IMG/VR virus record: IMGVR_UViG_3300013119_000574
Coordinates: 1 to 24,174 of that record
DNA from: a virus
Direction: 5' to 3' (one strand)
Length of the DNA stretch: 24,174 bases
Made by a program: the position numbers and the translations under genes. Each line of letters begins with the position of its first letter. Position 1 is the stretch's first letter. Under the pieces are notes generated by a model. That model searched no databases. It was given only the letters and a program-made list of their open reading frames with translations, and was not told the origin of the DNA. Positions 3,261-22,262 of the stretch are shown piece after piece.

Positions 3261-3306
3261 ATCGACATAGCATTCCGGTGGGCCGCGAAGGCTTGGCCCA
3301 CCCTAC
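3261..3306. repeat. Palindromic repeat family A, single hairpin
   Basis: GGTGGGCC (3277-3284) pairs with GGCCCACC (3295-3302), preceded by the conserved lead-in ATCGACATAGCATTCC. The element ends about 11 bases before the next start codon. Confidence 0.75.
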
Positions 3307-4221: not shown

Positions 4222-4272
4222 ATGAAACGCCCGGAAATCACAATCGTCTGGGCGAATCTGGGCGACTACTAA
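4222..4272 (+). CDS. Putative 16-residue leader peptide
   Basis: ATG 4222 is preceded by GAGGGAAAAC, one of the better ribosome binding sites in the window. It opens a 16-codon frame (MKRPEITIVWANLGDY) ending in TAATG, which is the start of the head closure gene. The next gene has no site of its own because its upstream DNA is this frame, so the peptide may exist mainly to deliver ribosomes by stop-start coupling. No homologue recognised. Confidence 0.5.
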   Translation: MKRPEITIVWANLGDY

Positions 4273-4625
4273 TGCGAGCCGGCCAACTACGCCACCGTAT
4301 AACGATTCAGCAAGACACCGGCAGCGAGGACGCGGCCGGGCAGGTCGTGGAATCGTGGGCGGCCTGGTTATCGAACGAGCCGGCCGAAGTAATCGAAACC
4401 GGCGGGGCGGAACGCGTGTTTGGCCAACAGGTGGACGCCACGGCAACGCATGTTGTAAGGATCCGGTACCGGGAGGGCGTCACCGAACAAATGCGCATCG
4501 TGTGGGGTGGCCGACTGCTGGGCATTAGTAACGCCCGCGATCGAGACGGCCGCCGCCGCGAGCTGTGGATCAGTTGTAAGGCGCTGAAAGATACGACCAC
4601 GACCACCACGACGGCGGCGCCGTAG
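4272..4625 (+). CDS. Head closure / head-tail adaptor with poly-Thr tail
   Basis: A 117-residue head-tail joining protein (Phage_H_T_join, SPP1 gp16-like family), which closes the head and receives the tail. The opening MRAGQLRHRITIQ is the family signature. The body alternates strands (WAAWLSNEPAEVIETGGAER, then THVVRIRYREG, then MRIVWGGRLLGISNARDRDG), ending in RRELWISCKAL. After the normal end of the domain comes an added KDTTTTTTTAAP tail, absent from typical members and matching the poly-Thr/AAP linkers of the protein at 11808-13595. Start chosen at ATG 4272 in the TAATG overlap. The much longer in-frame extension upstream is a shadow of the connector gene. Confidence 0.92.
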   Translation: MRAGQLRHRITIQQDTGSEDAAGQVVESWAAWLSNEPAEVIETGGAERVFGQQVDATATHVVRIRYREGVTEQMRIVWGGRLLGISNARDRDGRRRELWISCKALKDTTTTTTTAAP

Positions 4626-6165: not shown

Positions 6166-6202
6166 ATTCCGGTGGGCCGCGAATACTTGGCCCACCCTAC
6201 AA
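6166..6202. repeat. Palindromic repeat family A, single hairpin
   Basis: GGTGGGCC (6171-6178) pairs with GGCCCACC (6189-6196). The element ends immediately before the AAGGAG ribosome binding site of the next gene. Confidence 0.75.
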
Positions 6203-6216
6203 GAAGGAGAACAAAC

Positions 6217-6627
6217 GTGGCGGACGTCAACGTGAAAATCCGGCAACCAGCACCCCAAGCGGTCGAGGCAATCACGATCGAGGTCGAGTTGCGGCCGCAT
6301 GTCGGAGTCATGCAAACGCGATTCGGCCCGGTCAAGGTACAGCAGAATCAGTTCATCATTCTGGCCGGACCCGACGGGGGCGACGTGGTCCAGGTCGGCT
6401 ACGTGGGCAAGCAAGCCGGCGCACCGATCAATTGGATCCGTGATGCAAACGGCCAACCATTCCCCGACCTGATCAAGGGCGCCGTACGCGAGGCGATCGC
6501 CACCGAGCTCGGCCAAGCCGAACGGCGGGAAGCCCAACCGCCACCGCCCACGACGGCGGACGAGCTCGACGAGGATCTGGACGAGGATCTGGCCGAGCTC
6601 GACGACGATTTGGACAGCGGCGGGTAG
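6217..6627 (+). CDS. Conserved phage protein with acidic C-terminal tail
   Basis: A 136-residue protein between the tail tube and tail chaperone genes. The N-terminal 95 residues form a compact domain of unknown function (VELRPHVGVMQTRFGPVKVQ, then IILAGPDGGDVVQVGYVGKQ). A Pro-rich hinge (QPPPPTT) follows, and the last 20 or so residues are nearly all Asp, Glu and Leu (DELDEDLDEDLAELDDDL). Start chosen at GTG 6217 because AAGGAG is ideally spaced; the ATG at 6172 lies inside the family A repeat. The acidic tail could act as a chaperone-like or DNA-mimic segment, but this is speculation. Confidence 0.75.
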   Translation: MADVNVKIRQPAPQAVEAITIEVELRPHVGVMQTRFGPVKVQQNQFIILAGPDGGDVVQVGYVGKQAGAPINWIRDANGQPFPDLIKGAVREAIATELGQAERREAQPPPPTTADELDEDLDEDLAELDDDLDSGG

Positions 6628-6629
6628 CG

Positions 6630-6717
6630 GTAGGGTGGGCCCGTGGCCCACCAGAAACCGCCGGCCATTTGATCGACAGTGTATTCCGGTGGGCCGCGAG
6701 TACTTGGCCCACCCTAC
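6630..6717. repeat. Palindromic repeat family A, paired element
   Basis: Two hairpins in inverted orientation. Outer arms GTAGGGTGGGCC (6630-6641) and GGCCCACCCTAC (6706-6717) are perfect inverted copies. The interior carries the family lead-in GATCGACAGTGTATTCC. The last ten bases recur directly after it (ACCCTACCAA at 6711-6720 and 6721-6730). Confidence 0.8.
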
Positions 6718-6744
6718 CAAACCCTACCAACAGGAAGCCAGACC

Positions 6745-7131
6745 ATGCTTTGTAGTCGCGAGCAGCTATTGGGCCTGACGGACGTGCGGTATTGCACGGT
6801 CGACGTGGCCGACCTTTCGTTCCGGATCCGTAGCCTTAGCGAGGCGGAAAAGTCGGAGTTTGAAACGTCGATTTTATCGTCTGAAGGCAAGTATTCACTG
6901 GCCAAGATCAAACGCCAGCGGCGGCGCCTAATCGCCATTTGCCTGGTCGACCAGAGCGGCGGGCAACTGCTGAAGGGCGACGACCAGAACGCGTTGAAAG
7001 ACGTCGACGGGCTGGTTACAAGCCGGCTGTACGACGCTTGCCGCGAGCATTGCGGATTCGAGGAAGGGGATATTGAGGGGCTTGTAAAAAACTCAGACAA
7101 AATCCCCGACGACGCTTTGCCTACAGACTAG
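6745..7131 (+). CDS. Tail assembly chaperone, short form (gpG-like)
   Basis: A 128-residue protein, the equivalent of lambda gpG, which coats the tape measure protein during tail assembly. The pattern VDVADLSFRIRSLSEAEKSE, IKRQRRRLIAICLVDQSGGQ and TSRLYDACREHCGF is typical of siphovirus tail chaperones. Start chosen at ATG 6745 with AGGAAG 8 nt upstream; a longer frame from 6679 begins in repeat sequence. Near its end the codons GTA AAA AAC form an A AAA AAC slippery heptamer (7086-7092), and a second open frame continues in -1, giving the long gpGT-like form. Directly followed by the tape measure gene. Confidence 0.87.
   Translation: MLCSREQLLGLTDVRYCTVDVADLSFRIRSLSEAEKSEFETSILSSEGKYSLAKIKRQRRRLIAICLVDQSGGQLLKGDDQNALKDVDGLVTSRLYDACREHCGFEEGDIEGLVKNSDKIPDDALPTD
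7086..7092 (+). promoter_or_regulatory. Programmed -1 frameshift slippery site A AAA AAC
   Basis: In the zero frame of the short chaperone the codons read GTA AAA AAC, so the heptamer sits in exact X XXY YYZ register. Slipping back by one base continues into an open frame with no stop until 7431-7433. I could not assign a clear downstream pseudoknot. Confidence 0.82.
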
Positions 7132-7433
7132 CGCTTCAACTGGGCATTGTCGACGTCGATACGTGGCTGGAATCGATCGACCCGCGGACCCTCGACGCGT
7201 GGATGGCCTTTGACCGTGTCGAGCCGATCAGCGGCGCGTGGCGGCATACGGGCGAGATCGCCGCCGCCGCTTGGAACGCGGTCGCACTACTGGCCGCCGG
7301 GCAAGGCGTAAAGATCGACCTACGCACCGCGGCCGACTTTACCCCCGATCGATCCGCACCGGTGCAAGATTCGCCGGCCGAGTTTTCCGGCGAGCAGATC
7401 CGGGCGGCCATGGAAAAACGATTCGGCACGTAG
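7092..7433 (+). CDS. Tail assembly chaperone frameshift extension (gpT-like part)
   Basis: This frame supplies the C-terminal 113 residues of a -1 frameshift product of about 229 residues that shares its first 116 codons with the gene at 6745. It opens LRQNPRRRFAYRLALQLG and continues VDTWLESIDPRTLDAWMAF, which is the known look of the T domain of tail chaperones: an R/A/LAL..G helix followed by W..s.....l..W.af. The only ATG with a plausible independent start is at 7203, but it has no ribosome binding site and would cut off the most conserved part. The T domain recruits tube subunits to the tape measure. No stop codon interrupts the frame between the slippery site and 7431. Confidence 0.82.
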   Translation, partial: LRQNPRRRFAYRLALQLGIVDVDTWLESIDPRTLDAWMAFDRVEPISGAWRHTGEIAAAAWNAVALLAAGQGVKIDLRTAADFTPDRSAPVQDSPAEFSGEQIRAAMEKRFGT

Positions 7434-7446
7434 AAACGACCAGGCC

Positions 7447-10326
7447 ATGGGCACGATAGGCAATCTAAACTACAAGATCGGCGCCGACACCAGCGGATTT
7501 ACCCGTGGCATGGTGGCCAGCAAGAAAGAGCTGCGCGACGCTGCCAAACTGATGGACGCCACGCGAACGCCGACCGAACGATATAGCGGCGAGCTGGGCA
7601 AGCTCAATTCGCTATACCGAAAAGGCGCCATCGATCAGACGACCTACACCCGCCGCTTGCGCCAGATGCGTGTCGAAAAGATGACCGGGATTCCGGTTGT
7701 CGGCCGCTTTGTCAATCAACTGGCCAACGTGCACCCCGCCCTGATCGCCGCCGGCTTGGCGCTGGCCGCCTTTACCGGCGCCCTGGCGATCGCAAAGCGA
7801 GCGGTCCGCGGTGTGACCGAAGCCATTAAGGAGCAACTGGGCAACATCGACGAAATCGCCAAGGCCGCCCGATCGATCGATATGACCGCCAGCGAACTTG
7901 TGGGCCTGCGCCTGGCAGCGGCCGAGTTTTCCGGCGTCGAGGGTCCGGCCTTTGACAAAGCAATCAAGAAGATGACGGTCCAGCTTGGCGACGCACAACG
8001 CGGCACGGGATCCGCCAAGATGGCCCTGGATATGCTCCATAAGTCGGTAGACGATTTTGCCGGACAATCGCCGGCCGAGACATTCAAGGATCTGGCCGAC
8101 GCCATCGCCGCGGTCGAGGATCCGACACGTCGCGCCTACATCGCGCAGCAACTGTTCGGCCGGTCGGGCGTGGACCTGATCAACACCCTATCCGCCGGCC
8201 GCGAGGGTATCGAAGACGTCGAGCGGGCCGCCGCCGCGCTGGGTAGTACGTTTACAGCCATCGAAGCGTCTAACGTCGAAGCAGCTAACGATGCCGTGGG
8301 CCGGCTTTCGGAAAGGTTCGACGGCTTGGGCCGCAGGGCTGCGATTTCGGCTGCGCCGGCGCTCAAACTGATCGCTGACGAGCTGCTCGACCTGACCGAC
8401 AGAAGCAGCGAATTCGGGCAGACGATCCAAGGGGCTATCGAACTGATCGGGCCCGGTCTGGCGATCACCGTGGACATCGTCAAAAGCCTGGTCGGGCAGC
8501 TGCAAACGGCACAAGCGACCGTGCTGGACTATTTGGCCACGGCGCTAACTGCGGCCGAAAAACTCGACAAGCTGCGGGCCAAGGTGACAGGCGGCGAGGC
8601 CGACCAGGAATTGGCCATTATGGCCGACACGTTCCGCAACAAAGCAAAAGCCACGCGGATCGAAGGCTGGAACCGCACGGTGTCGGGCGCCAGCTTTGAC
8701 ACGCTGGCCAAGTTCAACGAGTTGCAAAAGACGGGCGTCGGGTTGGCGACCGACAAAGCCGCCGCACAGAAAAAGGGCGCCGATCTGGCAGCGGTGGAAG
8801 CCGACGCACTGGCAAAGGCCGCGGCCGAGCAACAGAAGACTGCCGACGCCGCCACCGCCCTGACCGATCGACTCCAACAGCAGGTCGATCTATTCGGCCT
8901 GTCTGCCGGCGAGGCCGCGATCGTCACGCTAGAGCTACAAGACGCCGCGCCCGCGGCGACCAAGTTGGCCCGCGAACTGCAGGCCACTCTGGACACCATG
9001 CAGGGCGAGGCCGCGCTGGAAGCGTCGATTGAGCAATTTACGCAAAGCCTGTGGGACCAGGCCACCGCGGCCGGCAAGACTGCCGAGGAACTGAAGTTCT
9101 TACAGTTGGTACGGGACGGCGCGACCGAGCCACAACTGGCCGACGCCCGGATGGCGTCGAACCTGCTGTTCCTGCAACGCGAGTTGGCCGACATCGCGGC
9201 CGAGCAACAGAAGATTGACGACGCCGCCATGAAACGCGGCGAGCAGTTGACGCAATCCCTGCGATCGCCCGCCGAACAGTTGGCCGACGACATAGCCGAA
9301 TACGACGCCCTGTTGGACGAATACGACGACCTGTTGGCACGCGAGGCGATTACCGAGGAAACCCATGCCCGCGCCGTGGCCAAAGCCCGCGAGGCGATTA
9401 CCGAGGCGGTCGAGCCTGTCGAGCCTGTCAAGGTCCGGTATGAAGTCGACGGCGTGGCCGCGGCCGTGCGGGACAGCCAAGAGGCGGCCAAGGCGATCGC
9501 CCGGCACAAGCGAGAAACGGAGCAAAACACAACGGGCGGGATCCGGTTGACCGACGCCCGCAAGCTGGCCGGCGACGACGTCCCGCGCGCCGCGGCGCCC
9601 GGCGACGACGTCCCGCCCGCCGCCGACTTTGAACTGGTCGGCCTGGACGATCAGGTCCGCATTGTCGAAAGCCTGGCGGCGCCGATCCGGCCGACGTTCG
9701 AGCTGCTCGGAGTGGATCAGGTGGCCGCGGACATCGAGGCCGCCACCGGCCAGCTTGGCAACTCGCCCGACGTTCCGAAGCTGCCGGACTTGACCACCGA
9801 CATAGCCGGCGTTCCGGATCTGCCGGACTTGGCGATCGACGAGCCCGACGTTCCGGATCTGCCGGCGATCGACGAGCCCGACGTTCCGGATCTGCCGGCG
9901 ATCGACGAGCCCGACGTTCCGGATCTGCCGGACTTGGCGATCGACATAGCCGGCGTTCCGGATCTGCCGGACTTGGCGATCGACGAGCCCGACGTTCCGA
10001 AGCTGCCGGACTTGACCACCGACATAGCCGGCGTTCCGGATCTGCCGGACTTGACGATCGACATAGCCGGCGTTCCGGATCTGCCGGACTTGGCGATCGA
10101 CGAGCCCGACGTTCCGGATCTGCCGGACTTGGCGATCGACGAGCCACGGGACCAGGCCAACGCGGCCGTGATCGAAGAACAAGTGAGAATCACCGCCGAC
10201 ACGGCCGCCAGCGATCCGGACGACGGCCGCCAAGCGGCGCTGCTAGACCGGATCGCCACCACCCTGGACGCGATCGAGGCCAAGACGGCCGATGAGCCGG
10301 TGGCGGTCAACGAGGTGAAGCTGTGA
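7447..10326 (+). CDS. Tail tape measure protein
   Basis: A 959-residue protein, the longest in the window, placed right after the tail chaperones. The opening (GNLNYKIGADTSGFTRGM) is a standard tape measure start. A hydrophobic segment lies at about residues 94-117 (VHPALIAAGLALAAFTGALA), and a second at about 335-350. Typical tape measure text follows (IDMTASELVGLRLAAAEFSG, then AQQLFGRSGVDLINTLSAG). Residues 540-700 are long charged helices. Residues 775-900 are ten tandem units of 13 or 11 residues based on DVPDLPDLAIDEP, which is unusual for the family. Its length should set the tail length, indicating a long non-contractile tail. It ends in a 4-bp overlap with the next gene. The ribosome binding site is weak. 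Confidence 0.93.
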   Translation: MGTIGNLNYKIGADTSGFTRGMVASKKELRDAAKLMDATRTPTERYSGELGKLNSLYRKGAIDQTTYTRRLRQMRVEKMTGIPVVGRFVNQLANVHPALIAAGLALAAFTGALAIAKRAVRGVTEAIKEQLGNIDEIAKAARSIDMTASELVGLRLAAAEFSGVEGPAFDKAIKKMTVQLGDAQRGTGSAKMALDMLHKSVDDFAGQSPAETFKDLADAIAAVEDPTRRAYIAQQLFGRSGVDLINTLSAGREGIEDVERAAAALGSTFTAIEASNVEAANDAVGRLSERFDGLGRRAAISAAPALKLIADELLDLTDRSSEFGQTIQGAIELIGPGLAITVDIVKSLVGQLQTAQATVLDYLATALTAAEKLDKLRAKVTGGEADQELAIMADTFRNKAKATRIEGWNRTVSGASFDTLAKFNELQKTGVGLATDKAAAQKKGADLAAVEADALAKAAAEQQKTADAATALTDRLQQQVDLFGLSAGEAAIVTLELQDAAPAATKLARELQATLDTMQGEAALEASIEQFTQSLWDQATAAGKTAEELKFLQLVRDGATEPQLADARMASNLLFLQRELADIAAEQQKIDDAAMKRGEQLTQSLRSPAEQLADDIAEYDALLDEYDDLLAREAITEETHARAVAKAREAITEAVEPVEPVKVRYEVDGVAAAVRDSQEAAKAIARHKRETEQNTTGGIRLTDARKLAGDDVPRAAAPGDDVPPAADFELVGLDDQVRIVESLAAPIRPTFELLGVDQVAADIEAATGQLGNSPDVPKLPDLTTDIAGVPDLPDLAIDEPDVPDLPAIDEPDVPDLPAIDEPDVPDLPDLAIDIAGVPDLPDLAIDEPDVPKLPDLTTDIAGVPDLPDLTIDIAGVPDLPDLAIDEPDVPDLPDLAIDEPRDQANAAVIEEQVRITADTAASDPDDGRQAALLDRIATTLDAIEAKTADEPVAVNEVKL
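9769..10146 (+). repeat. Ten-unit tandem repeat inside the tape measure gene
   Basis: Eight 39-bp units and two 33-bp units encode variants of DVPDLPDLAIDEP, ending in DEP or DIA and opening with DVPKL, DVPDL or GVPDL. The short units lack two codons (DVPDLPAIDEP). Units are in frame and nearly identical at DNA level, which suggests recent expansion. Confidence 0.95.
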
Positions 10327-11219
10327 GCGTGATTGCCTGCAAAGCGGTTGACGTGTCGTACACCTCGGACGGCGAGCGAACGAGGGCCTATAAGGTCACC
10401 TATGAATCGATCACGAACGACCAGGCCGACCATGCCCGCGTCGTGGTGCTGGACCTTATCGCCCGCGTCCCCTTCGGCACGCAATACAGTCTACATAACG
10501 ACTCGGACGCGTACTGCTTTGCCAAGTACCCGAAGAACTGCAAGGCGGTGGGGCTCGCCAAAGGCGGCCGGCGCAAGTGGCGTTCGGATATTGAGTTCTC
10601 CAACCACCCACAAGAAAAATGCAGCGAGGCCGAGTGGGAGAACCCGATCGACGAGCCGTACAAGCTTAGCGGTTCTTTTGTGCGGGCCATGCGGCCCGCC
10701 ACCAAAGACCGGCACGGCGAACCGGTCGACAACAGCGCCGACGAGCCGGTGTTACCGGCGCCCGAAGTCGACGATTCACGGGATACCGTGATTATCGAAT
10801 CCAATACGGCCACGATCGATCTGGCGTTGCGATCGGCGATGCGCGACAAGGTCAACAGCGCGACGATCTGGGGATTGCCACCGCGAACGGTCAAGCTCGG
10901 CCAATGGTCGTGGTCGGCCGAGTACTACGGCCAATGTCATATCTACATCGTCAATCGGCTGGAATTTGAGATCAACAAGGATAAGTGGAACTTCGTCCAT
11001 ATCGACCGAGGGTTCCGAATCGTGAACGGCGAGGACGACGACGGCAATATCAAGTATACGACGCTAATGGACGACCGGGACCAACCATTGCGCGAGCCGC
11101 GGCTGTTGGACGGGGCCGGCGCCCTGCTGCCGGGCGGCGGTTCCCCGTTCGAAATCGAGGAGGAGCTGGCGGACGAGGCGGACTTGAGATTGTTACCCGT
11201 CCCGAATCCGCTGTTCTGA
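10323..11219 (+). CDS. Probable tail-tip or baseplate protein, family not recognised
   Basis: A 298-residue protein that starts in the stop of the tape measure gene (GTGA overlap), the position of distal tail or tail-tip genes in siphoviruses. The N-terminal half has alternating strands (TRAYKVTYESITNDQADHAR, then VVVLDLIARVPFGTQYS), with a Cys/Trp-containing middle (YPKNCKAVG, KWRSDIEFSN). Residues 150-245 look like a second beta domain (DTVIIESNTATIDL, then WSAEYYGQCHIYIVNRLEFE), which includes WNFVHIDRGFRI. The layout resembles proteins described as tail fibre or distal tail components, but I cannot name a family. The C-terminal 40 residues are acidic and probably flexible. Confidence 0.75.
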   Translation: MSVIACKAVDVSYTSDGERTRAYKVTYESITNDQADHARVVVLDLIARVPFGTQYSLHNDSDAYCFAKYPKNCKAVGLAKGGRRKWRSDIEFSNHPQEKCSEAEWENPIDEPYKLSGSFVRAMRPATKDRHGEPVDNSADEPVLPAPEVDDSRDTVIIESNTATIDLALRSAMRDKVNSATIWGLPPRTVKLGQWSWSAEYYGQCHIYIVNRLEFEINKDKWNFVHIDRGFRIVNGEDDDGNIKYTTLMDDRDQPLREPRLLDGAGALLPGGGSPFEIEEELADEADLRLLPVPNPLF

Positions 11220-11222
11220 TTT

Positions 11223-11318
11223 GTAGGGTGGGCCGCGGAGACTTGGCCCACCAGAGACCGCCGGCCGTTGTGATCGACAGCGTATTCCGGTGGGCCGCGG
11301 AGACTTGGCCCACCCTAC
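11223..11318. repeat. Palindromic repeat family A, paired element
   Basis: Same architecture as 6630-6717: outer arms at 11223-11234 and 11307-11318 are perfect inverted copies, each next to its own GTGGGCC...GGCCCAC hairpin. The central lead-in GATCGACAGCGTATTCC is conserved. It fills the whole gap between two tail genes. Confidence 0.82.
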
Positions 11319-11807: not shown

Positions 11808-13595
11808 ATGGCCGCGATTGTCACACTATCCGAAGATTCCCTGCGCAAGCTGTCGGAGAACTTGCGGCGGGCGGGTTATGCGCCGATCAATTCGCCGCGG
11901 CCGCAACCGGGCGACTCGGCCAAAAGCGGCGCGCGTCTGGTGCGGATCGGTCGCACTACGGTCAGCACCGATTGCGGCACCTATCCGGAAGAGCCGGCCA
12001 ACACCTACGCGGTCGAGTTTGGGCATTTGCAGTTTTGCGAATCACCGGGCCTGCGGGACGTCGAGTTCTACCCCTACGATCCGGCCGAGACCCGCTACGG
12101 CCACGACACGGCAGACCGCTATATTCCGCGCGGGTCGATCGTGTTTGCCGAGCTACACCATGGGCGGTGGTGGATCAGCGAGGTTTACGACACGGCCACG
12201 GCCACCACGACCACCACGACCACCACGGCGTCGCCGTATTCGCCATGCGACGGTGATTGCAAGTGGACCTGGTCGGCCGCGTCGGCCGCGTGGTCCCTGG
12301 ACACGGACGCTTGCGGGCCGACCACCACCACGACCACCACGGCCGCGCCGTGCGAGTGCTTATACCCGGCGAATTGCGGCACGGTCGACGGGGAGTGCAC
12401 CTACACGTTTTGCTCGCAGTCGGTCAACTATCCGCCGGAGTGCACCACGACGACCACGGCCGGGCCGACCACCACGACCACAACTTGCGATTGCAACACC
12501 ACGACCACCACAACCACCACGGCCGGGCCGACGTGCGTCGACGGTTGCGATTTTATCGGCATTCCCAGCGCGTCGGGTTGGATTTGGCAACAGACATCCA
12601 ACGGCTGTACGTCGGATTGTCCATGTCCCGCGCCCGACCCTGCGCTGGATCCCTATTGCGCGACCACCCACACTGGATGCGTCCCGACGCCGCCGACGAC
12701 ACCACCGCCGCCGCCGCCGGGCTGCAGCGGTGGTTGCACTTACTGGTGGGTTCCGGCCGTCGGCTATTGGGTCAAGACGTCGGATAGTTGCGCCTCGGTA
12801 GCCGGTTGCGCCTGCAGCCCGCCTAGCAACACGGGCAGCGGATTTCAGTGTGGCGCGCCGACGGTCGTGGCTTGTGCGACGCCGCCGGCCAATACGACCA
12901 CCACCGGCGCACCGACCACCACCGGCGCCCCCGCGCCGTGCGCGTATTGCTACACCACCACCACGACCAGCACCACGACGACGACCGGCGCTTGCGACGG
13001 GGCGTGCAAGTGGGACTGGGACCCCGCGGGGGCCGGATCGTGGGACAAGCAATCCGATACTTGCGCCGCTGAATGTCCGTGCATGGAACCGCCTTTCGAC
13101 GGGCAAGCCGACTGTCACACCGAATGGACCGGTTGCGAAGGCACGACGACCACGACCACCACGACGACCACGACGAGCACGACGACGACCACCTGCGGCA
13201 CGTGCCCTGCAGGCGCAGGAGAGGTTTGCTATCAGTGCAATGAAGAAGGTTCGCAATGGTGGCTGATCACGAACAACTGTTCAGAATTCTTCCAGGCCCC
13301 CTCCCCGCCCTCCCAGGCGGGCGATCCATGCACGCCATGTGCCAATTCCGTCCAGTTATGCGAGTGCATCGCCTCAACATGCTCTTGGTCTAACGGCACT
13401 GAGTGTTGCTGGCAGTGCGACGAAACAGGGACAGCGTGGATTGCGCAGCACGGAGCGTGCTATAGCGGCGAGTGCGAGATGCCATCGCTGCCGTGTACTC
13501 CCTGCTCGTCGTCCGCGACCGTTAGTTGCACGACGACGACGACGACGACGACGACAACGACCACGACCACGACGAGCACGACGACGACCACCTAA
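11808..13595 (+). CDS. Mucin-like virion protein: Cys/Trp modules joined by poly-Thr linkers
   Basis: A 595-residue protein of unusual composition. Residues 1-128 form a globular domain (SEDSLRKLSENLRRAGYAP, then YIPRGSIVFAELHHGRWW). From about residue 129 on, runs of 5-15 threonines, often ending AAP, ASP or AGP, alternate with about six Cys/Trp modules. A typical module reads CDGDCKWTW (147-155) or CDGACKWDW (396-404), then a Trp, a Cys about 6 residues later, CPCP or similar, and two more Cys. Modules start near residues 147, 243, 306, 396, 474 and 534. The protein ends in about 21 Thr/Ser codons. Start chosen at ATG 11808, after the repeat element. Poly-Thr linkers look like O-glycosylation targets, and the four genes downstream are sugar and sulfate transferases. 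Probably a tail fibre or surface-display protein; the specific role is inferred. Confidence 0.82.
   Translation: MAAIVTLSEDSLRKLSENLRRAGYAPINSPRPQPGDSAKSGARLVRIGRTTVSTDCGTYPEEPANTYAVEFGHLQFCESPGLRDVEFYPYDPAETRYGHDTADRYIPRGSIVFAELHHGRWWISEVYDTATATTTTTTTTASPYSPCDGDCKWTWSAASAAWSLDTDACGPTTTTTTTAAPCECLYPANCGTVDGECTYTFCSQSVNYPPECTTTTTAGPTTTTTTCDCNTTTTTTTTAGPTCVDGCDFIGIPSASGWIWQQTSNGCTSDCPCPAPDPALDPYCATTHTGCVPTPPTTPPPPPPGCSGGCTYWWVPAVGYWVKTSDSCASVAGCACSPPSNTGSGFQCGAPTVVACATPPANTTTTGAPTTTGAPAPCAYCYTTTTTSTTTTTGACDGACKWDWDPAGAGSWDKQSDTCAAECPCMEPPFDGQADCHTEWTGCEGTTTTTTTTTTTSTTTTTCGTCPAGAGEVCYQCNEEGSQWWLITNNCSEFFQAPSPPSQAGDPCTPCANSVQLCECIASTCSWSNGTECCWQCDETGTAWIAQHGACYSGECEMPSLPCTPCSSSATVSCTTTTTTTTTTTTTTTSTTTTT
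13530..13592 (+). repeat. ACG/ACC trinucleotide tract encoding the terminal poly-Thr run
   Basis: Twenty-one in-frame codons (mainly ACG and ACC, with one AGC) end the mucin-like gene. Shorter tracts of the same kind lie at about 12202-12231, 12320-12343, 12498-12522 and 13143-13191. Slippage in these tracts would change linker length without breaking the frame. Confidence 0.9.
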
Positions 13596-13612
13596 GCACG
13601 AAAGGCGACACT

Positions 13613-15373
13613 ATGGCGGCGACTCTCACGGTGGGCATGGCCCACTTCGACGATTACGACGGCGTCTATTTCACCGTTCAAGCCCTGGCGCTTTACCATT
13701 CGCTAGAGGGCATCGAAATTCTGATTGTGGACAACAGCCCGGATAAACCATCCGGGCAAGCGGTCAAGACGCTTTGCGAAAACTGGGCGGGGGCCGGCGC
13801 CAACGTCAAATATGTTCCCATGCCCGACACGGTCGGCACTTCGGCCCCGCGGGATCGCGTTTTCCGCGAGGCCTCGGGCGACGCCGTGGTGTGCATGGAT
13901 TGCCATGTCTTCTTGCCGGCCGGTGTTCTGCAGCGGCTGCGCCGTTGGTACGCCGACAATCCCGATTGTCTGGACCTGGTCCAAGGTCCGCTGCTGTACG
14001 ACGTGGCTTGTGCCGACCCGTTCGGCCACGATGTGCCGATTTCGACCCACTTTGATTTGACGTGGCGGGCGGAAATGTGGGGCACGTGGCAAACCGACGA
14101 CCGCGGCCGAGATCCGGACGCCGAACCGTTTGACATCCCGTCACAAGGGCTCGGCCTGTTCAGTTGCCGGCGCGAGGCGTGGTTGGGCTTTAATGAGCAC
14201 TTCCGCGGCTTTGGCGGGGAAGAGGGCTACATCCATGAGAAATTCCGCAAGGCCGGCCGGCGGGCGATCTGCGTCCCGTGGCTGCGCTGGGGTCACCGGT
14301 TCGGCCGGCCGGGCGGTGTTAAGTATCCGCTGTCGCGTTGGAACAAAGTGCGGAACTACGTGCTAGGCCACACCGAGCTGGACATGGACCTGGCACCGGT
14401 GCGCGAGCACTTCGTGGACAGCGGGTTGATGCCGGTCGAGCAGTGGGACTATCTGGTCGAGGATCCGGCCGGCCGCGAGCACCCGCCGGGCCTGGTACCC
14501 GAACCGGCCACGGTACCGGCTGCCGGTGGTTGCGGCAGCGGCGGCGCGTCACGCTCACAACCGCCCGAGGGTGCGACGCTGGACCAAATTTTTGAGTGGT
14601 GCAAGAACACGCCGCGCGATCTTGACCAGCACCTGGACAAATTGAGCGAACTGGCCAAAGGTCAACGGCATGTTACCGAATTGACCAAGCGCCGCGAGTC
14701 TACGGTGGGCCTGCTGGCCGGCCGGCCTAAGTTTCTGGTGAGCTGGCAGCGGGAACCGGATCCGCTGCAAAAGACGTTGCACAACGTGTTAGAACTGCCG
14801 ATTGACACGTATACTTCGCACGCCGGCAACCATGGCGGGCTGCCGGACGTCGAGCCGACGGACGTGCTATTTATTGACGACGTGCACCACGGCGAGGTGT
14901 TGCACGGGCAATTGACCAAATACGCCGACGTGGTCCGCAAGCGAATTGTGTTGCGTGGAACGGGCGCGTTTGCCGAGCGGGCCGAAGGCGGCAACGGGCC
15001 CGGGCTGCTGGCCGGCTTGCGACGGTTCATGCGCGAGCGGCCGGAGTGGTCCGTGATCTATCACACCGCCGAACAGTACGGGCTGACCGTGATTTCCCGC
15101 CTGAAGAAAGACAAGCCAGATCTACCGAGCGCCGTCGAGATGGCCAAGAACCTGGTAGGCACGCTGGCCGATCACGTGGCCGACGGGCTCGGCCGGGCGA
15201 CTCGCGAGCAATTGCAGGCGCGGCTGGAGCTTTGCACGTTGTGCGAGAATCGGGTCGATAAGCGGTGCGGCGCGTGCGGCTGCTATATCAGCAAGAAGGC
15301 ACCGATCCGGACGGCCGATTGTCCGCTGGGCAAGTGGCCGGCGTTGCCGGAGGAAGCGACGAACGATGGGTAG
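13613..15373 (+). CDS. GT-A glycosyltransferase (GT27-like) fused to a methyltransferase-like domain and a Cys4 zinc ribbon
   Basis: A 586-residue, apparently three-part protein. Residues 1-260: GT-A glycosyltransferase with the nucleotide-sugar strand EILIVDNSP (D40), a metal-binding D-x-H in VVCMDCHVF (D96, H98), and the acceptor-side block FRGFGGEEGYIHEKFRKAG (198-214) followed by WLRWGHRFGRP. D-x-H plus the FGGEE...GH.F arrangement resembles polypeptide GalNAc transferases (GT27) more than ordinary GT2. Residues 320-480: a Rossmann-like part with DVLFIDDVHHGEVLHGQL and KRIVLRGTGAF, reminiscent of cephalosporin hydroxylase or Methyltransf_24 domains. Residues 541-572: CTLC, CGACGC and CPLGKW, a likely Zn ribbon. 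Start at ATG 13613 (AAAGG upstream); an earlier in-frame poly-Asp start is an artefact of the ACG tract. It lies 17 bp after the poly-Thr gene and overlaps the next by 8 bp. Confidence 0.85.
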   Translation: MAATLTVGMAHFDDYDGVYFTVQALALYHSLEGIEILIVDNSPDKPSGQAVKTLCENWAGAGANVKYVPMPDTVGTSAPRDRVFREASGDAVVCMDCHVFLPAGVLQRLRRWYADNPDCLDLVQGPLLYDVACADPFGHDVPISTHFDLTWRAEMWGTWQTDDRGRDPDAEPFDIPSQGLGLFSCRREAWLGFNEHFRGFGGEEGYIHEKFRKAGRRAICVPWLRWGHRFGRPGGVKYPLSRWNKVRNYVLGHTELDMDLAPVREHFVDSGLMPVEQWDYLVEDPAGREHPPGLVPEPATVPAAGGCGSGGASRSQPPEGATLDQIFEWCKNTPRDLDQHLDKLSELAKGQRHVTELTKRRESTVGLLAGRPKFLVSWQREPDPLQKTLHNVLELPIDTYTSHAGNHGGLPDVEPTDVLFIDDVHHGEVLHGQLTKYADVVRKRIVLRGTGAFAERAEGGNGPGLLAGLRRFMRERPEWSVIYHTAEQYGLTVISRLKKDKPDLPSAVEMAKNLVGTLADHVADGLGRATREQLQARLELCTLCENRVDKRCGACGCYISKKAPIRTADCPLGKWPALPEEATNDG

Positions 15374-16508
15374 GTTTGCAAGCTTGGCGTGTGGCGTCGA
15401 GTATTTGGAAATCGCCAAAGCCGGCTGCTGTTCGATCAAGGCCGCGCTGTTGGCGGCCGACGGTATCAGGGTCGGCGGTGGCGGGATGCACGAGCACCCC
15501 CACTGGCGCGAGATCCCGGCGGACTGGAAGCCGAAGCTGACATTTACTGTCGTTCGCCATCCATTGGACCGGTTGCGGTCCGCGTACTATGAGAAGCTGC
15601 AGCGGGGTCTTGCTAAGAATCTCAAGGGCAATTGCCCGTTGCCAAAAGAGGCGAGCTTTTCCCAGTGGGTCCAGTGGGTCACAAAGCAGGATCCGGCCGT
15701 GGTCGATCGCCATTGGGCCCCGCAGGCCGTAGTACTGGACCGCTACAAATCACGAGACAAGCGCGAGCCGCAATGGGTCGGGCGCTTCGAGCATCTTGGC
15801 GCATACTGGCGGTGGCTACAAGAATTGCACGGGCTGCCCGATTTGCTCCACTACAACAAATCCACCAAGGCCAAAGAGGCCACGTATTCTCACGGCCTGG
15901 TCGACCAGGCCGCGCGGTTCTATATGCCGGACCTGCGGCGGTTCGGGTACCATGAGGACGATTTCCGGCCGCCCACGGATCCCGGCGCGTGGATCGATTG
16001 CCCGGGCTTCCTGTTCCGGAAGGAAGCGGAAGAGCTGCAGCGGCTGGCCGCCGGGCGGGACGTGCTGGAGTGTGGCGTTTGGAAAGCCAAGTCAAGCCTG
16101 GCGATGGCCGCCACGGCCAAGCACGTGGTGAGCGTGGATAACTTCCAGGGCGACGCGTATACCGGCCGAGCTTCGACGCTGCCGGGGGCCTGGCGTTCAC
16201 TGACCGAGTACCACGGCCGACACAAGGTCACGCTGATGGCCGGCGATTTTCGCGACGTCTTGCCGCGGCTTGATCTATCACAATTCGGCCTGTTCTTTTA
16301 TGATGCCGACCACAGCTACGAAGCGACGGCCGCGGCGTTGCGATTGGCCGAGAAGCGTATGCGGCGGGATCTTACGATTGCCGTACACGACTACAAGCCG
16401 CACCAAAAGCAAATCCTGCGAGCTGTCGACCAGTATCTGGACCGACAAGCCGGCCGGCGGCGGTTGCGCGTGGTCAAGGGCTTGGCAATTCTGGAGCCTG
16501 CCAAGTGA
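15366..16508 (+). CDS. Bifunctional sulfotransferase - SAM methyltransferase
   Basis: A 380-residue fusion. Residues 1-205: PAPS-dependent sulfotransferase of the Sulfotransfer_2 kind. The 5'-phosphosulfate loop is AKAGCCSIKAALL (K18 to I24) and the 3'-phosphate motif is VVRHPLDRLRSAYYEKL (R64, S72). Residues 210-380: class I methyltransferase of the Methyltransf_24 kind. Motif I is VLECGVWKAKSSLAMAA (233-249), the acidic residue is in VVSVDNF (D258), the metal or active-site stretch is FFYDADHSYEA (310-320), and HDY is at 341-343. The likely substrate is a glycan made by the neighbouring glycosyltransferases. Start ATG 15366 overlaps the upstream gene by 8 bp, and the 3' end overlaps the next by 4 bp. 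Confidence 0.85.
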   Translation: MGRFASLACGVEYLEIAKAGCCSIKAALLAADGIRVGGGGMHEHPHWREIPADWKPKLTFTVVRHPLDRLRSAYYEKLQRGLAKNLKGNCPLPKEASFSQWVQWVTKQDPAVVDRHWAPQAVVLDRYKSRDKREPQWVGRFEHLGAYWRWLQELHGLPDLLHYNKSTKAKEATYSHGLVDQAARFYMPDLRRFGYHEDDFRPPTDPGAWIDCPGFLFRKEAEELQRLAAGRDVLECGVWKAKSSLAMAATAKHVVSVDNFQGDAYTGRASTLPGAWRSLTEYHGRHKVTLMAGDFRDVLPRLDLSQFGLFFYDADHSYEATAAALRLAEKRMRRDLTIAVHDYKPHQKQILRAVDQYLDRQAGRRRLRVVKGLAILEPAK

Positions 16509-17176
16509 CGCTGCGAGTCTTTATCACATCGCCCGGGCGTTGTGGGTCCAGCATGCTTGCCGAGTTCTGCCGGCGCATGGGGCACGATCCCGGCGGACAC
16601 TGGGACGAGACCGCCGATTGCGGCCGCGAGGATCCGCTGGCGGCCGAGATCCAAGCCCGGCTACTGAGCGACGATCCGCGGCTGCTGGACATGGGCCGGC
16701 GGGCAATTCGATCGGTCGACCAGGCCGTGGTCAAGAATTGTATGTTGTTTCGGGAGCCGGAAAAGCTGCTCGATCCGTGGCTGGGAGCATGGCCGGGCCT
16801 GCATATCGTCGCACTCTGGCGGGATCCCCTGGCACAATTCGAATCGTGGGACCGCAAGTTGACGCTGGAAGGCTTCCCCGGAGAGTTCCGGAAGCGGCAA
16901 CCACCGGCCGCCACGTTTTGCGTGGAACGGGAACGCGAGCGGGCCGAGTTCGGAGCGTCTTGCGATCGCCGGGGCGTTCCGCTGGCGTGGATGGAATATC
17001 CCGATTTTCTGTATGACGTGGCCGCCGTGTTGCGTGCGTTGGCGCCGCTGGACCTGGATCCAGGCCACGCGATCGCCACGTGGGCCGAACTGGTCGACCA
17101 CAACAAGATTCATTGCGAAGGGAGCGCGGAATGCATCTCGCCTGCCTCTGCCCAACCTACGGGCGCCCTAGCCTAG
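16505..17176 (+). CDS. Second sulfotransferase
   Basis: A 223-residue PAPS-dependent sulfotransferase with the canonical 5'-PSB loop SPGRCGSSMLAEF (S9 to F21), where GRCGSS matches the GRSGSS form common in bacteria. The 3'-PB segment is IVALWRDPLAQFESW (101-115; R106, S114). The middle carries VVKNCMLFREPEKLLDPWL, typical of family members that sulfate sugars. Only one transferase domain is present. The GTG start at 16505 lies in a GTGA overlap with the preceding stop, implying coupling. Its 3' end overlaps the next gene by 46 bp, so the last 15 residues (CISPASAQPTGALA) are probably non-conserved. Confidence 0.85.
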   Translation: MTLRVFITSPGRCGSSMLAEFCRRMGHDPGGHWDETADCGREDPLAAEIQARLLSDDPRLLDMGRRAIRSVDQAVVKNCMLFREPEKLLDPWLGAWPGLHIVALWRDPLAQFESWDRKLTLEGFPGEFRKRQPPAATFCVERERERAEFGASCDRRGVPLAWMEYPDFLYDVAAVLRALAPLDLDPGHAIATWAELVDHNKIHCEGSAECISPASAQPTGALA

Positions 17177-17907
17177 TTCGCAACGCGTTGGCGTTATTCT
17201 TGGGGCAAGACCTGCAGGGCCATACGGCCGAACTGTGGATTCTCGACGACGCCGGGCAAATCCCCTCGCAAAGCGGCGGGCCCGAAGGGCAACGCTGGCA
17301 CGTGATCAGCGAGGCCGAGCGATACCCGACGCTACCCGCCAAGTACACCCGCCTGGTCGAACTGGCGCGGCCGATCGCCGACGCGTACGTGGTGTGGGAC
17401 GACGACGACGTCTATTTACCGTGGCACGTGGCGGTCCATGCGCGGACCCTCGATCCGGACATCGGCGCGGACGTAAGCGGCAACCGCTGGGCCTCGCGGC
17501 CCGCGGAGGCTTGGAGTCACCCCCGCGAGGTCCTGAGCACGGCCGGCCGGCGTTCGCTGGATGAGCCGCCGGCGATCGAGGCGAGCGCGTCTCGGTTTCA
17601 CGGTTCGCTGGCAATCCGCCGGGATTGCCTGGACACGCTGGGCGGCTGGATTCAGACGGACCGGGCGACGTTTGACCAGGAAATGATCGGCGCACTGATC
17701 CGGCACTCCAAGGCCGGCAACCCGTGCGAGATTCACCCGCCAAGCTACGTTTACCGATGGGGTGACACCGGCCGTCACCATTGCTCGGGCGTGATGAATC
17801 GGCCCGACTGGTACCAGCTTACGCCGATTCAAGAACCGGGAATCGTCGAGGATTTCGGGCCACAATACGACGACAGCACCCGCCGACTGCTGGACATTCT
17901 GACCTGA
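17131..17907 (+). CDS. Glycosyltransferase, GT2-like
   Basis: A 258-residue GT-A glycosyltransferase. The opening strand and loop MHLACLCPTYGRPSLVRNAL is the classical GT2 N-terminus. The second strand ends in WILDD (36-40), and the metal-binding motif is VVWDDDDVYLPWH (87-99). Later, GSLAIRRDCLDTLGGW and DQEMIGALI fit the acceptor-side 'R....GG......ED' region. Donor and linkage cannot be read from sequence. Start chosen at ATG 17131, with GGGAG 8 nt upstream; the ATG at 17080 lies deeper in the preceding gene and lacks a site. It completes the four-gene sugar and sulfate cassette. Confidence 0.85.
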   Translation: MHLACLCPTYGRPSLVRNALALFLGQDLQGHTAELWILDDAGQIPSQSGGPEGQRWHVISEAERYPTLPAKYTRLVELARPIADAYVVWDDDDVYLPWHVAVHARTLDPDIGADVSGNRWASRPAEAWSHPREVLSTAGRRSLDEPPAIEASASRFHGSLAIRRDCLDTLGGWIQTDRATFDQEMIGALIRHSKAGNPCEIHPPSYVYRWGDTGRHHCSGVMNRPDWYQLTPIQEPGIVEDFGPQYDDSTRRLLDILT

Positions 17908-20524: not shown

Positions 20525-20707
20525 ATGCCACGGTTGTGCATTACACGGAAGGCGGGCGAATCGGTGCGGATCGGGGACGTTCTGGTCACAGTCGTAAAAA
20601 GCGGCCACCATGTGCGGCTAACAATCGAGGCGGACGAATCGGTGCAAATTGTCCGGTCGGAGTTGGAGCGCCACGACGAGCGGGAACAGAAAGTACGGGC
20701 GGCATGA
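20525..20707 (+). CDS. csrA: CsrA/RsmA-family RNA-binding regulator
   Basis: A 60-residue homologue of carbon storage regulator CsrA, a dimeric protein that binds GGA motifs in mRNA leaders and blocks or alters translation. Family features: ITRKAGESVRIGD near the start (compare the R.vGE...IGd core), V.V......VRL.IEA in the middle (HHVRLTIEA), and VQIVRSELERHDE at the end, in which the Arg keeps the position of the RNA-contacting Arg44 of E. coli CsrA. The N-terminus has an extra Pro-Arg. Start ATG 20525 follows a GGGGGCGGAT site. Chromosomal csrA genes are common, but here it sits between an HTH regulator and an integrase, so it appears phage-borne. Its stop overlaps the next small frame (ATGA). 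Confidence 0.88.
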   Translation: MPRLCITRKAGESVRIGDVLVTVVKSGHHVRLTIEADESVQIVRSELERHDEREQKVRAA

Positions 20708-21062: not shown

Positions 21063-22262
21063 ATGCTATCTTGCGAATCGACGATTGTATGCGGGGCGTT
21101 CTCTGCGCCCGTCACGCCGCCGCTGGACATGGAGGGCTTGGACGTGGCCGCCCAGCTTGCCCTATTCAATCCGAGCCCGGATCTGAAAGTCGATCCTGTG
21201 GCGGGGGCCATCGACGCGTATCTGGACGCCACCGGGGCGGCCGAATCGACGCGAGACAGCTACTCCACGACCAAGCGGCGGTGGCTGGAGTGGATGAAGA
21301 CACATCGGTCTCGCAGACCGATGCTGTTAGAGCAGGTCACGGCCGACGACCTACGCGATTGGCTTACCTGGTGCCTGGACGCGGCCCGCTCGGCCGGGGA
21401 TTCGAACGTCGAGAACACCCACAACAAGCGGCGCCGCGAGATCCGGGCCGTGTTGCAGTGGGCTTGGAACGAGGGCCAAATAGACGCGTTGCCGCGGTTT
21501 CCTCAGAAGCTGCAGGCCCGAACCGTGGCCGGGCACTACTTTCTGACCGACGAGGAAATGGAGCGCCTGTATTGGGCGACGTTGGCCATGCCGACGCCGG
21601 CACGGTGGAAGGATCCGCGGCCGATCGGCCTGCTGTGGCGTACGGCGCTGGTCTTGCTTCGAAATTACGGCATGGATACGCAAGCGCTCTTTCCCTACTC
21701 CAAGAGCGCCAAGAGCGTCGCACGGTGGAAGCACATCGCCGGGCCGGGGTTGCCACCGGGCCGCGTGGCCAACGTCCAAGGGCCCCATGGGTGGCTTACG
21801 TTGCGTCGGCAGAAAACGGGCCGGCTGTTGATGTTGCCCCTAGAACCCGTCGTCAAGGCCCACCTGGACGCGATCCGGCCGGCCGTGGTGGATCCCGACG
21901 AGCCGATTATGGGCCGGGCCGGCGGGATGCGGCCCTGCCAACGGTTTCAGCAGCTAGCCGCGGCTGCCGGCCTGCAGGACAAGGTCGACATAGAAACCGA
22001 AGCGGTGACGCCGTGGGCACTGAAGGATCTGCGCAAGACGTGCGCCACGGCCCACAACGCAAACCGGCCGGGATCCGCCCAGTATGTTCTCGGACATTCA
22101 AGCGGCGTGATCACCGAGAAGCACTACGCAAACGCGTTGCCGGTGGTGCTGGAAGCGATAAGAACGCTCCCGCAACCGCCGGCGTTCCGACTTGGACACG
22201 TGCGTATTTTCATAGCGAAGGCCAGACTCAATCCGTCTGCGGCCGGCGTGGTCCCGTCTTAG
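21063..22262 (+). CDS. int: Tyrosine recombinase (integrase), planctomycete-type
   Basis: A 399-residue tyrosine recombinase for site-specific integration and excision. Residues 45-140 form the SAM-like core-binding domain (IDAYLDATGAAESTRDSYST). The catalytic domain starts near residue 160 (FLTDEEMERLYWA). Visible catalytic residues: K251 in RRQKTGR, K321 and R324 in LKDLRKTCAT (Lys where the usual HxxR has His), H345 in VLGHSSG, and Tyr355 in EKHYAN. Box I reads NYGMDTQAL, with Asp205 where the invariant Arg normally sits. The LKDLRKTCAT and QPPAF strings match what I recall of planctomycete integrases. Start at ATG 21063 (GGGAG 11 nt upstream); ATG 21129 is an alternative. A strong terminator follows. 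Confidence 0.9.
   Translation: MLSCESTIVCGAFSAPVTPPLDMEGLDVAAQLALFNPSPDLKVDPVAGAIDAYLDATGAAESTRDSYSTTKRRWLEWMKTHRSRRPMLLEQVTADDLRDWLTWCLDAARSAGDSNVENTHNKRRREIRAVLQWAWNEGQIDALPRFPQKLQARTVAGHYFLTDEEMERLYWATLAMPTPARWKDPRPIGLLWRTALVLLRNYGMDTQALFPYSKSAKSVARWKHIAGPGLPPGRVANVQGPHGWLTLRRQKTGRLLMLPLEPVVKAHLDAIRPAVVDPDEPIMGRAGGMRPCQRFQQLAAAAGLQDKVDIETEAVTPWALKDLRKTCATAHNANRPGSAQYVLGHSSGVITEKHYANALPVVLEAIRTLPQPPAFRLGHVRIFIAKARLNPSAAGVVPS

Follow-up and report, generated by a model that had tools for sequence, protein, structure and literature searches.

The window analysed here, a stretch of 24,174 nucleotides of viral DNA, raises the question of why the gene of a threonine-rich protein is followed at close distance by a set of genes for predicted sugar-modifying enzymes, and whether this protein would be their substrate. 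The arrangement described in the initial annotation, a 595-residue protein of poly-Thr stretches and Cys/Trp modules whose gene is separated by 17 bp from a group of four overlapping genes, is correct in its coordinates, with these four genes spanning positions 13613-17907 on the 3' side of the Thr-run gene. This cassette is located directly behind tail genes, whose upstream anchor is a tape-measure protein (7447..10326, plus strand; PHROG tail length tape measure, E 1e-38). A protein of 298 residues encoded 3' of the tape measure (10323..11219, plus strand) is conserved in position, with proteins of about 295 residues occupying the equivalent slot in the phages L004, L005 and L008. A search of plasmids with an intergenic repeat, carried out to obtain a clue to the host, returned no match.

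The Thr-run protein (11808..13595, plus strand), the proposed acceptor of glycosylation and a candidate tail or surface protein, contains 128 Thr (21.5%), 54 Cys and 19 Trp and shows 13 runs of at least three Thr, the longest of which comprises 15 residues. Its N-terminal domain (residues 1-127) precedes a series of modules of the pattern C-x-G-x-C-x-W-x-W...W...C, four copies of which are detected by this pattern. The modules, which are small and probably disulfide-bonded, are separated by Thr runs, and the last 21 residues of the protein are all Thr except for a single Ser. Searches of Pfam and PHROGs yielded no family match for this protein and hence none that would mark it as a constituent of the virion. 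In gel-forming mucins, Thr-run acceptor regions are placed beside Cys-rich domains, and the 595-residue protein shares this organization. As a separate observation, the head-closure protein Hc1 (4272..4625, plus strand; family D3) ends in KDTTTTTTTAAP, the same Thr motif as is found in a linker, and is a possible second acceptor of glycosylation.

The first enzyme of the cassette (gene 1; 13613..15373, plus strand, 586 residues, starting with ATG at 13613) had been annotated as a GT27-like glycosyltransferase, an assignment that is upheld by the fold of its N-terminal part, whereas the protein as a whole turned out to be a fusion of three parts. Residues 1-290 constitute a GT-A glycosyltransferase domain (PF00535, E 4e-10) of GT27-like character, residues from about 320 to 500 a degenerate CmcI/Methyltransf_24-like Rossmann domain, which is recognisable via homologues and has lost its glycine loop, and residues 534-575 a Cys zinc ribbon of the DUF6171 family (PF19668, E 5e-7). 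In searches with the glycosyltransferase domain of the AlphaFold model (pLDDT 81.6), the best 50 Foldseek matches listed all belong to the family of polypeptide GalNAc-transferases (best E 1.7e-13). Similarly, VIA-align places enzymes of this family at all of ranks 1-29, with Z between 23.8 and 19.8 over 248-265 residues and the best match extending over 256 residues, before chondroitin polymerase as the next family (Z 18.9). At the level of sequence, neither phmmer nor profiles detected a GT27 match in PDB. The predicted GT-A fold by itself leaves the donor and the acceptor of the enzyme unfixed.

Enzymes of the GT27 class are known mainly from animals, where GalNAc-transferases (CAZy GT27) act in mucin-type O-glycosylation. 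They provide the nearest solved fold for the phage domain and share with it, at 13-20% sequence identity, the motifs D-x-H, G-G-E-[EN] and H-x-F in the same order. The catalytic-type features D-x-H and FGGEE...GH.F recognised in the initial annotation are borne out by conservation: Asp 96, His 98, Glu 203, Glu 204 and His 228 are invariant across 35 phage homologues, with both glutamates forming part of the GGEE motif. In GalNAc-T2, manganese is coordinated by Asp224, His226 and His359 (PMC4432651), to which D96-x-H98 and H228 correspond by motif and fold range rather than by residue-level superposition. Unlike GalNAc-transferases, the phage enzyme does not contain a ricin-type lectin domain, and its C-terminal part instead consists of the methyltransferase-like domain and the zinc ribbon. 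Since the C-terminal lectin domain of the animal enzymes is missing, we have not assigned the enzyme to GT27. In further distinction from its animal counterparts, the enzyme is viral and probably cytoplasmic. The zinc ribbon is shared with DUF6171 proteins of other phages such as the Synechococcus phage S-SRM01, where it is found directly after the adhesin-tip gene, but as a stand-alone protein that is not fused to a glycosyltransferase.

Among the following genes, the second (15366..16508, plus strand) encodes the fusion of a sulfotransferase and a methyltransferase that had been proposed initially. Its N-terminal half matches the carbohydrate sulfotransferases of Sulfotransfer_2 (PF03567, E 5e-12, 46.9 bits compared to a Pfam cut-off of 22 bits) and carries the PAPS-site-like motifs KAGCCSIKAAL and VVRHPLDRLRSAY, while its C-terminal half matches Methyltransf_24 (PF13578, E 2e-14). 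The SAM loop of the latter reads ECGVWKAKSS, as opposed to E[IV]G[CA]FQGRST in other methyltransferases of such cassettes. In contrast to carbohydrate sulfotransferases, the protein is fused to a methyltransferase and as such is without counterpart in related cassettes. In four relatives, a stand-alone methyltransferase homologous to its C-terminal half is found at the same place. For gene 3 (16505..17176, plus strand, 223 residues, GTG start), the assignment as a possible second sulfotransferase is at the level of motifs only, namely ITSPGRCGSSML resembling a 5'-PSB and VALWRDPLAQFESW resembling a 3'-PSB. The protein has no family match, even at E 10, in the libraries searched: Pfam, NCBIfam and PHROGs returned nothing, PDB sequences gave no meaningful match, and a comparison with phage sulfotransferases provided no support for this identity. 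Scans of viral contigs with genes 2 and 3 were empty, and neither gene can therefore be placed by its relatives. Gene 4 (17131..17907, plus strand, 258 residues) contains a WDDDD metal-site motif and shares 27-50% identity with homologues that related phages encode at the corresponding point of the cassette. It has no Pfam match of its own, but the GT2-like character ascribed to it is sustained by the homologue in L004, which passes PF00535, and by GT-A fold matches of a model of low confidence (pLDDT 65). The methyltransferase and the GT2 genes thus recur in order among related cassettes, whereas no sulfotransferase gene was found in the cassettes of relatives. The coat initially envisaged as sulfated and perhaps methylated is consequently better supported in its methylation, and sulfation, for which the second sulfotransferase is assigned on motifs only, is not supported as a regular feature of such cassettes.

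The relationship between the enzyme and Thr-rich proteins becomes apparent in a survey of other phages. Seven lineages encoding the fused enzyme (the window, L008, L009, L014, L015, L016/L075 and L017), which form separate clusters at 70% identity, have intact upstream DNA, and in all seven a protein of Thr runs and Cys/Trp modules is encoded just upstream. It occupies the position immediately preceding the enzyme (-1) except in L014, where it is found at -2/-3. The co-occurrence expected from the initial annotation was thus observed in every such lineage of the fused clade. The gene directly 5' of this enzyme codes for a modular protein similar to that of 595 residues in L004, L005, L008, L009, L015 and L017. 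In the wider glycosyltransferase family of 45 clusters, Thr-rich open reading frames are found at -1 in 14/43 and at -2 in 6/39 cases, which combine to 20/82 compared to 4/362 at other positions within six genes. The enrichment at -1 is reflected in a Fisher p of 6e-12, which overstates independence because the clusters are related by descent. Partners differ in construction and include proteins with Cys modules, short Thr/Pro proteins near tail fibres and a protein with an FGE-sulfatase domain, their common feature being Thr, and a tail context with tape measure and fibres recurs around the family. As judged from these sequence comparisons, the pairing of the two genes is not a product of chance.

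The association has its limits. In one large clade the glycosyltransferase gene resides in a replication-type neighbourhood away from Thr-rich genes, and the enzyme family is therefore not strictly tied to them. In this clade a DNA tract encoding eight Thr is present in 9/25 contigs and the glycosyltransferase in 24/25, implying that members of the family can function where long Thr runs are absent. A case-control comparison within the clade L045-L086 showed no contrast, with nearly every contig containing the glycosyltransferase, and a control based on related capsids provided one usable phage (L096), which contains neither the enzyme nor Thr runs. A scan of genome contigs identified a single MAG contig (L088), which has no Thr partner. 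Among 50,697 GenBank phage records there was no full homologue, searches with five query proteins recovered DUF6171 fragments only, and glycosyltransferase domains used as queries found no relative, placing the system outside of what isolates show. Likewise, our search of the literature brought up no description of poly-Thr in phages, of phage GT27 enzymes or of mucin-like proteins of phages.

Because the fold of the glycosyltransferase is closest to GalNAc-transferases and the pair is adjacent in many distant phages, we propose that phages carrying it probably sugar-coat their own tail proteins. The reading that fits the data best is that enzymes of the phage itself would O-glycosylate a mucin-like tail protein, methylation being a common and sulfation a local elaboration. 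The cassette would then constitute a unit for the glycosylation of virion proteins that is located distally in a tail cluster of siphophage type, and the 595-residue protein a tail or adhesin protein whose modules are joined by Thr runs. In the order of reactions that we infer, the GT27-like enzyme would transfer a sugar, possibly a HexNAc, from a probable UDP-sugar donor to Thr of the runs in a Mn-dependent manner, the GT2-like enzyme would probably add a further sugar, the methyltransferase would O-methylate the glycan and, in this phage, one or both sulfotransferase domains would sulfate it. The resulting hydrophilic, protease-resistant and charged tail surface would probably promote stability, adhesion or escape from recognition. 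We consider the action of the first enzyme on the neighbouring Thr runs to be reasonably likely, whereas methylation of their glycan is a nearly balanced proposition and its sulfation in this phage somewhat doubtful. The complete scheme of a virus-encoded mucin on the phage tail that is initiated, extended, O-methylated and here sulfated, with a widespread pairing of enzyme and substrate, is a tentative one that we regard as less likely than not.

Alternatively, the enzymes could remodel the host surface during infection or lysogeny, by acting on capsule, O-antigen-like or S-layer glycans, and the neighbouring Thr-run protein would be a tail fibre unconnected with them in which Thr serves as flexible linker. 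Sugar-modifying genes are classic cargo of temperate phages, the window contains an integrase-like gene (21063-22262; weak Pfam matches), and one clade of the family is found outside structural clusters. We regard this scenario as unlikely, given that the cassette is positioned right behind the tail genes and apart from the integrase-like gene, that adjacency to Thr runs is maintained across separate 70% clusters and differently built partners and that the nearest fold is of GT27 enzymes, which use protein acceptors. Even less probable appears a different virion acceptor such as the Thr-tailed head-closure protein, the capsid or the tail tube, with the Thr-run protein adjacent merely as a late gene of the tail cluster. 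Besides the C-terminus of Hc1, such targets have a precedent in Che8 and other mycobacteriophages, where phage glycosyltransferases decorate virion proteins and glycans are reported on the C-termini of capsid and tail-tube proteins (Freeman et al. 2023, as cited in PMC12619734). Yet the enrichment in our survey concerns the genes immediately upstream, and the Thr content is far higher in the adjacent 595-residue protein. Che8 also differs from the window in that its glycosyltransferase genes are far from structural genes, and its capsid and tail-tube proteins do not end in Thr runs. Its glycosyltransferases show no significant blastp or hmmsearch match, and the resemblance of one of them, Q855A2, at rank 10 in the viral fold library, is at the level of the fold only. 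Finally, it is very improbable that the runs are slippage-prone repeats without a role in modification within an inherited block of tail genes: although L007, a contig that shares 99% identity with the window, contains an in-frame insertion of 36 residues inside a Thr run, which indicates that such runs expand readily, they are encoded as Thr by mixed ACN codons in phages of 31-63% GC and are thus a property of the protein and not one frame of a drifting DNA repeat, which would yield other reading frames too, and differently built Thr-rich proteins adjoin the same enzyme family.

To our knowledge, there are few systems in which phage enzymes have been shown to glycosylate the virion. The recurrent pairing of a GT27-like enzyme with a Thr-run neighbour offers a testable rule for the assignment of enzymes and substrates in dozens of uncultured phages and points to phage mucins as a strategy of the tail surface. 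A compact enzyme that might attach sugars to Thr runs in bacteria could also be useful for glycoengineering.

The reading frame of the enzyme is open upstream of its start, and we have considered a ribosomal frameshift that would join it to the Thr-run protein. This possibility was rejected: a slippery sequence is not evident, position 13613 is preceded by AAAGG as a plausible ribosome-binding site, and in relatives the enzyme starts anew 21-53 bp past the preceding stop codon.

The 24,174-base virus record carries a head-tail gene cluster in which a major capsid protein (919-2352; Phage_capsid, E 1e-54), a head closure protein (4272-4625) and a tape measure protein (7447-10326) are followed by proteins of 298 and then 122 residues and by a Thr-rich protein of 595 residues (11808-13595, + strand; 128 Thr, 54 Cys), whose Cys/Trp modules are set apart by 13 runs of 3-15 Thr each. 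Gene 1 (13613-15373) starts 17 bp past this proposed glycosylation acceptor and is followed by three further overlapping genes up to position 17907, which reproduces the arrangement of four overlapping enzyme genes described in the initial annotation. The head closure protein ends in KDTTTTTTTAAP (4593-4623), so that another structural protein also bears a Thr tail; this region shares 87% DNA identity with a linker of the mucin-like gene.

In the 586-residue product of gene 1, three parts are fused: a GT2-superfamily glycosyltransferase (GT) domain (PF00535) at the N-terminus, a DUF6171 zinc ribbon at the C-terminus and a further domain between them. The middle domain, whose CmcI/Methyltransf_24-like character is recognisable in homologues, may serve a structural role since the usual glycine loop is gone (TELTKRREST in the window). 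AlphaFold, given an alignment of 35 homologues from phages, produced a model with a pLDDT of 81.6; most of the GT domain scores above 90. All 50 matches listed by Foldseek against the PDB are polypeptide GalNAc transferases (GalNAc-Ts). These also fill the first 29 ranks in VIA-align, with Z from 23.8 down to 19.8 and an rmsd of 2.5-3.5 over 248-265 aligned residues; chondroitin polymerase (Z 18.9) and others follow clearly below. In GalNAc-T2, manganese is bound by Asp224, His226 and His359 (PMC4432651); by motif, D96-x-H98 and H228 are their counterparts in the phage enzyme, and none of the 35 homologues varies at these residues or at E203 and E204 in the FGGEE motif. The proposed GT27-like nature of the enzyme is thus upheld at the level of the fold, but we do not claim membership of the family because sequence searches returned no GT27 match and the lectin domain of animal GalNAc-Ts is missing.

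The proposed pairing of the GT with a Thr-rich neighbour holds in the clade of fused enzymes. A close search identified four phage contigs that encode the entire fusion, with about 50% identity, and a profile search yielded 80 loci. When clusters at 70% identity are counted as separate lineages, all seven with intact upstream DNA encode, just upstream of the fused enzyme, a protein with Thr runs and 4-6 Cys/Trp modules matched by pattern; in one of them (L014) it lies two or three genes upstream. In two of the four contigs (L004 and L005), the tape measure gene precedes proteins of about 295 and 160-171 residues and a Thr/Cys protein of 1005-1058 residues; about 25 bp further on the fused enzyme begins, followed by a methyltransferase and the GT2-like gene. 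As the runs of partner proteins use mixed Thr codons in phages of 31-63% GC, they are a feature of the protein level. L007, a contig with 99% identity to the window, contains an in-frame insertion that lengthens one run by 36 residues (within 6505-7409); therefore, either run length changes fast within one phage population or the difference reflects collapse of the run during assembly.

In 45 clusters of the wider GT family (90% identity), Thr-rich ORFs occupy position -1 relative to the GT in 14/43 and position -2 in 6/39 cases, compared to 4/362 at the other ten positions. These partners vary in build and include proteins with Cys modules, short Thr/Pro proteins beside tail fibres and an FGE-sulfatase-domain protein with Thr linkers, among others. 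The last (L058:7335-8993; PF03781, C-type-lectin-like) adjoins the GT and is possibly a receptor-binding protein with a glycosylated linker. On a tree of 73 GT domains, where a few 'none' labels are threshold misses (e.g. L075, L022/L043), the Thr-partner label is clustered, yet distributed across the fused clade and two others. A third GT clade (L045-L086) often has a RecB-like nuclease gene as its neighbour, in a region of replication type. In 25 contigs of at least 43 kb drawn by this nuclease gene, an (ACN)8 tract is present in just 9 although 24 encode the GT, and acceptors other than long Thr runs thus probably exist. We therefore limit the Thr-acceptor claim to the fused and tail-fibre clades.

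The sulfated, perhaps methylated, coat that had been proposed is retained in part. Gene 2 (15366-16508) combines Sulfotransfer_2 with Methyltransf_24 (Pfam). Since stand-alone methyltransferases with 34-38% identity to its second half occupy the same position in four relatives (L004, L005, L008, L013), this half belongs to the cassette; the sulfotransferase domain was probably added in the window phage. Gene 3 (16505-17176) contains the sulfotransferase-like motifs ITSPGRCGSSML and VALWRDPLAQFESW but matches nothing in any family library searched. In 50 related records, Sulfotransfer_2 is found in one and Sulfotransfer_3 in seven, in no case inside the cassette, which argues for sulfation as a local extra rather than a general trait. 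The GT2-like gene 4 (17131-17907) has no Pfam match itself, but a homologue in the same position passes PF00535; the weak model of gene 4 (pLDDT 65) finds GT-A matches in a fold search. In a 128-kb phage contig (L017:11259-17711), genes resembling sugar-nucleotide and glycan genes run on the opposite strand past the fused enzyme.

Mycobacteriophages are known to glycosylate their virions with enzymes of their own (PMC12619734, citing Freeman et al. 2023). A Che8 glycosyltransferase resembles gene 1 in fold but not in sequence, and Thr-run tails are absent from the Che8 capsid and tail-tube proteins. No relative beyond DUF6171 fragments was detected in 50,697 GenBank phage records, and our literature search found no paper on such a system. 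In Synechococcus phage S-SRM01, a stand-alone DUF6171 zinc ribbon (6986-7321) directly follows an adhesin-tip gene near a flavin-dependent halogenase; the domain may mark adhesin modification or assembly.

Two repeat families look like REP elements of a host genome inside a phage: the hairpin-type intergenic repeat GGTGGGCCGCGAATACTTGGCCCACC (3277-3302, 6171-6196, 6688-6713, 11227-11252, 11289-11314), with four of its five copies inside 60-base repeats near gene starts, and GGGAGGGCGACGCTCCCGCGG with its inverse (523, 6038, 6121, 11713, 11746). The tape measure gene harbours about 10 tandem copies of the 39-bp repeat VPDLPDLAIDEPD (9765-10145), where near-identical contigs align in several registers, and a CsrA-like regulator is encoded at 20525-20707 (Pfam CsrA, E 6e-12).
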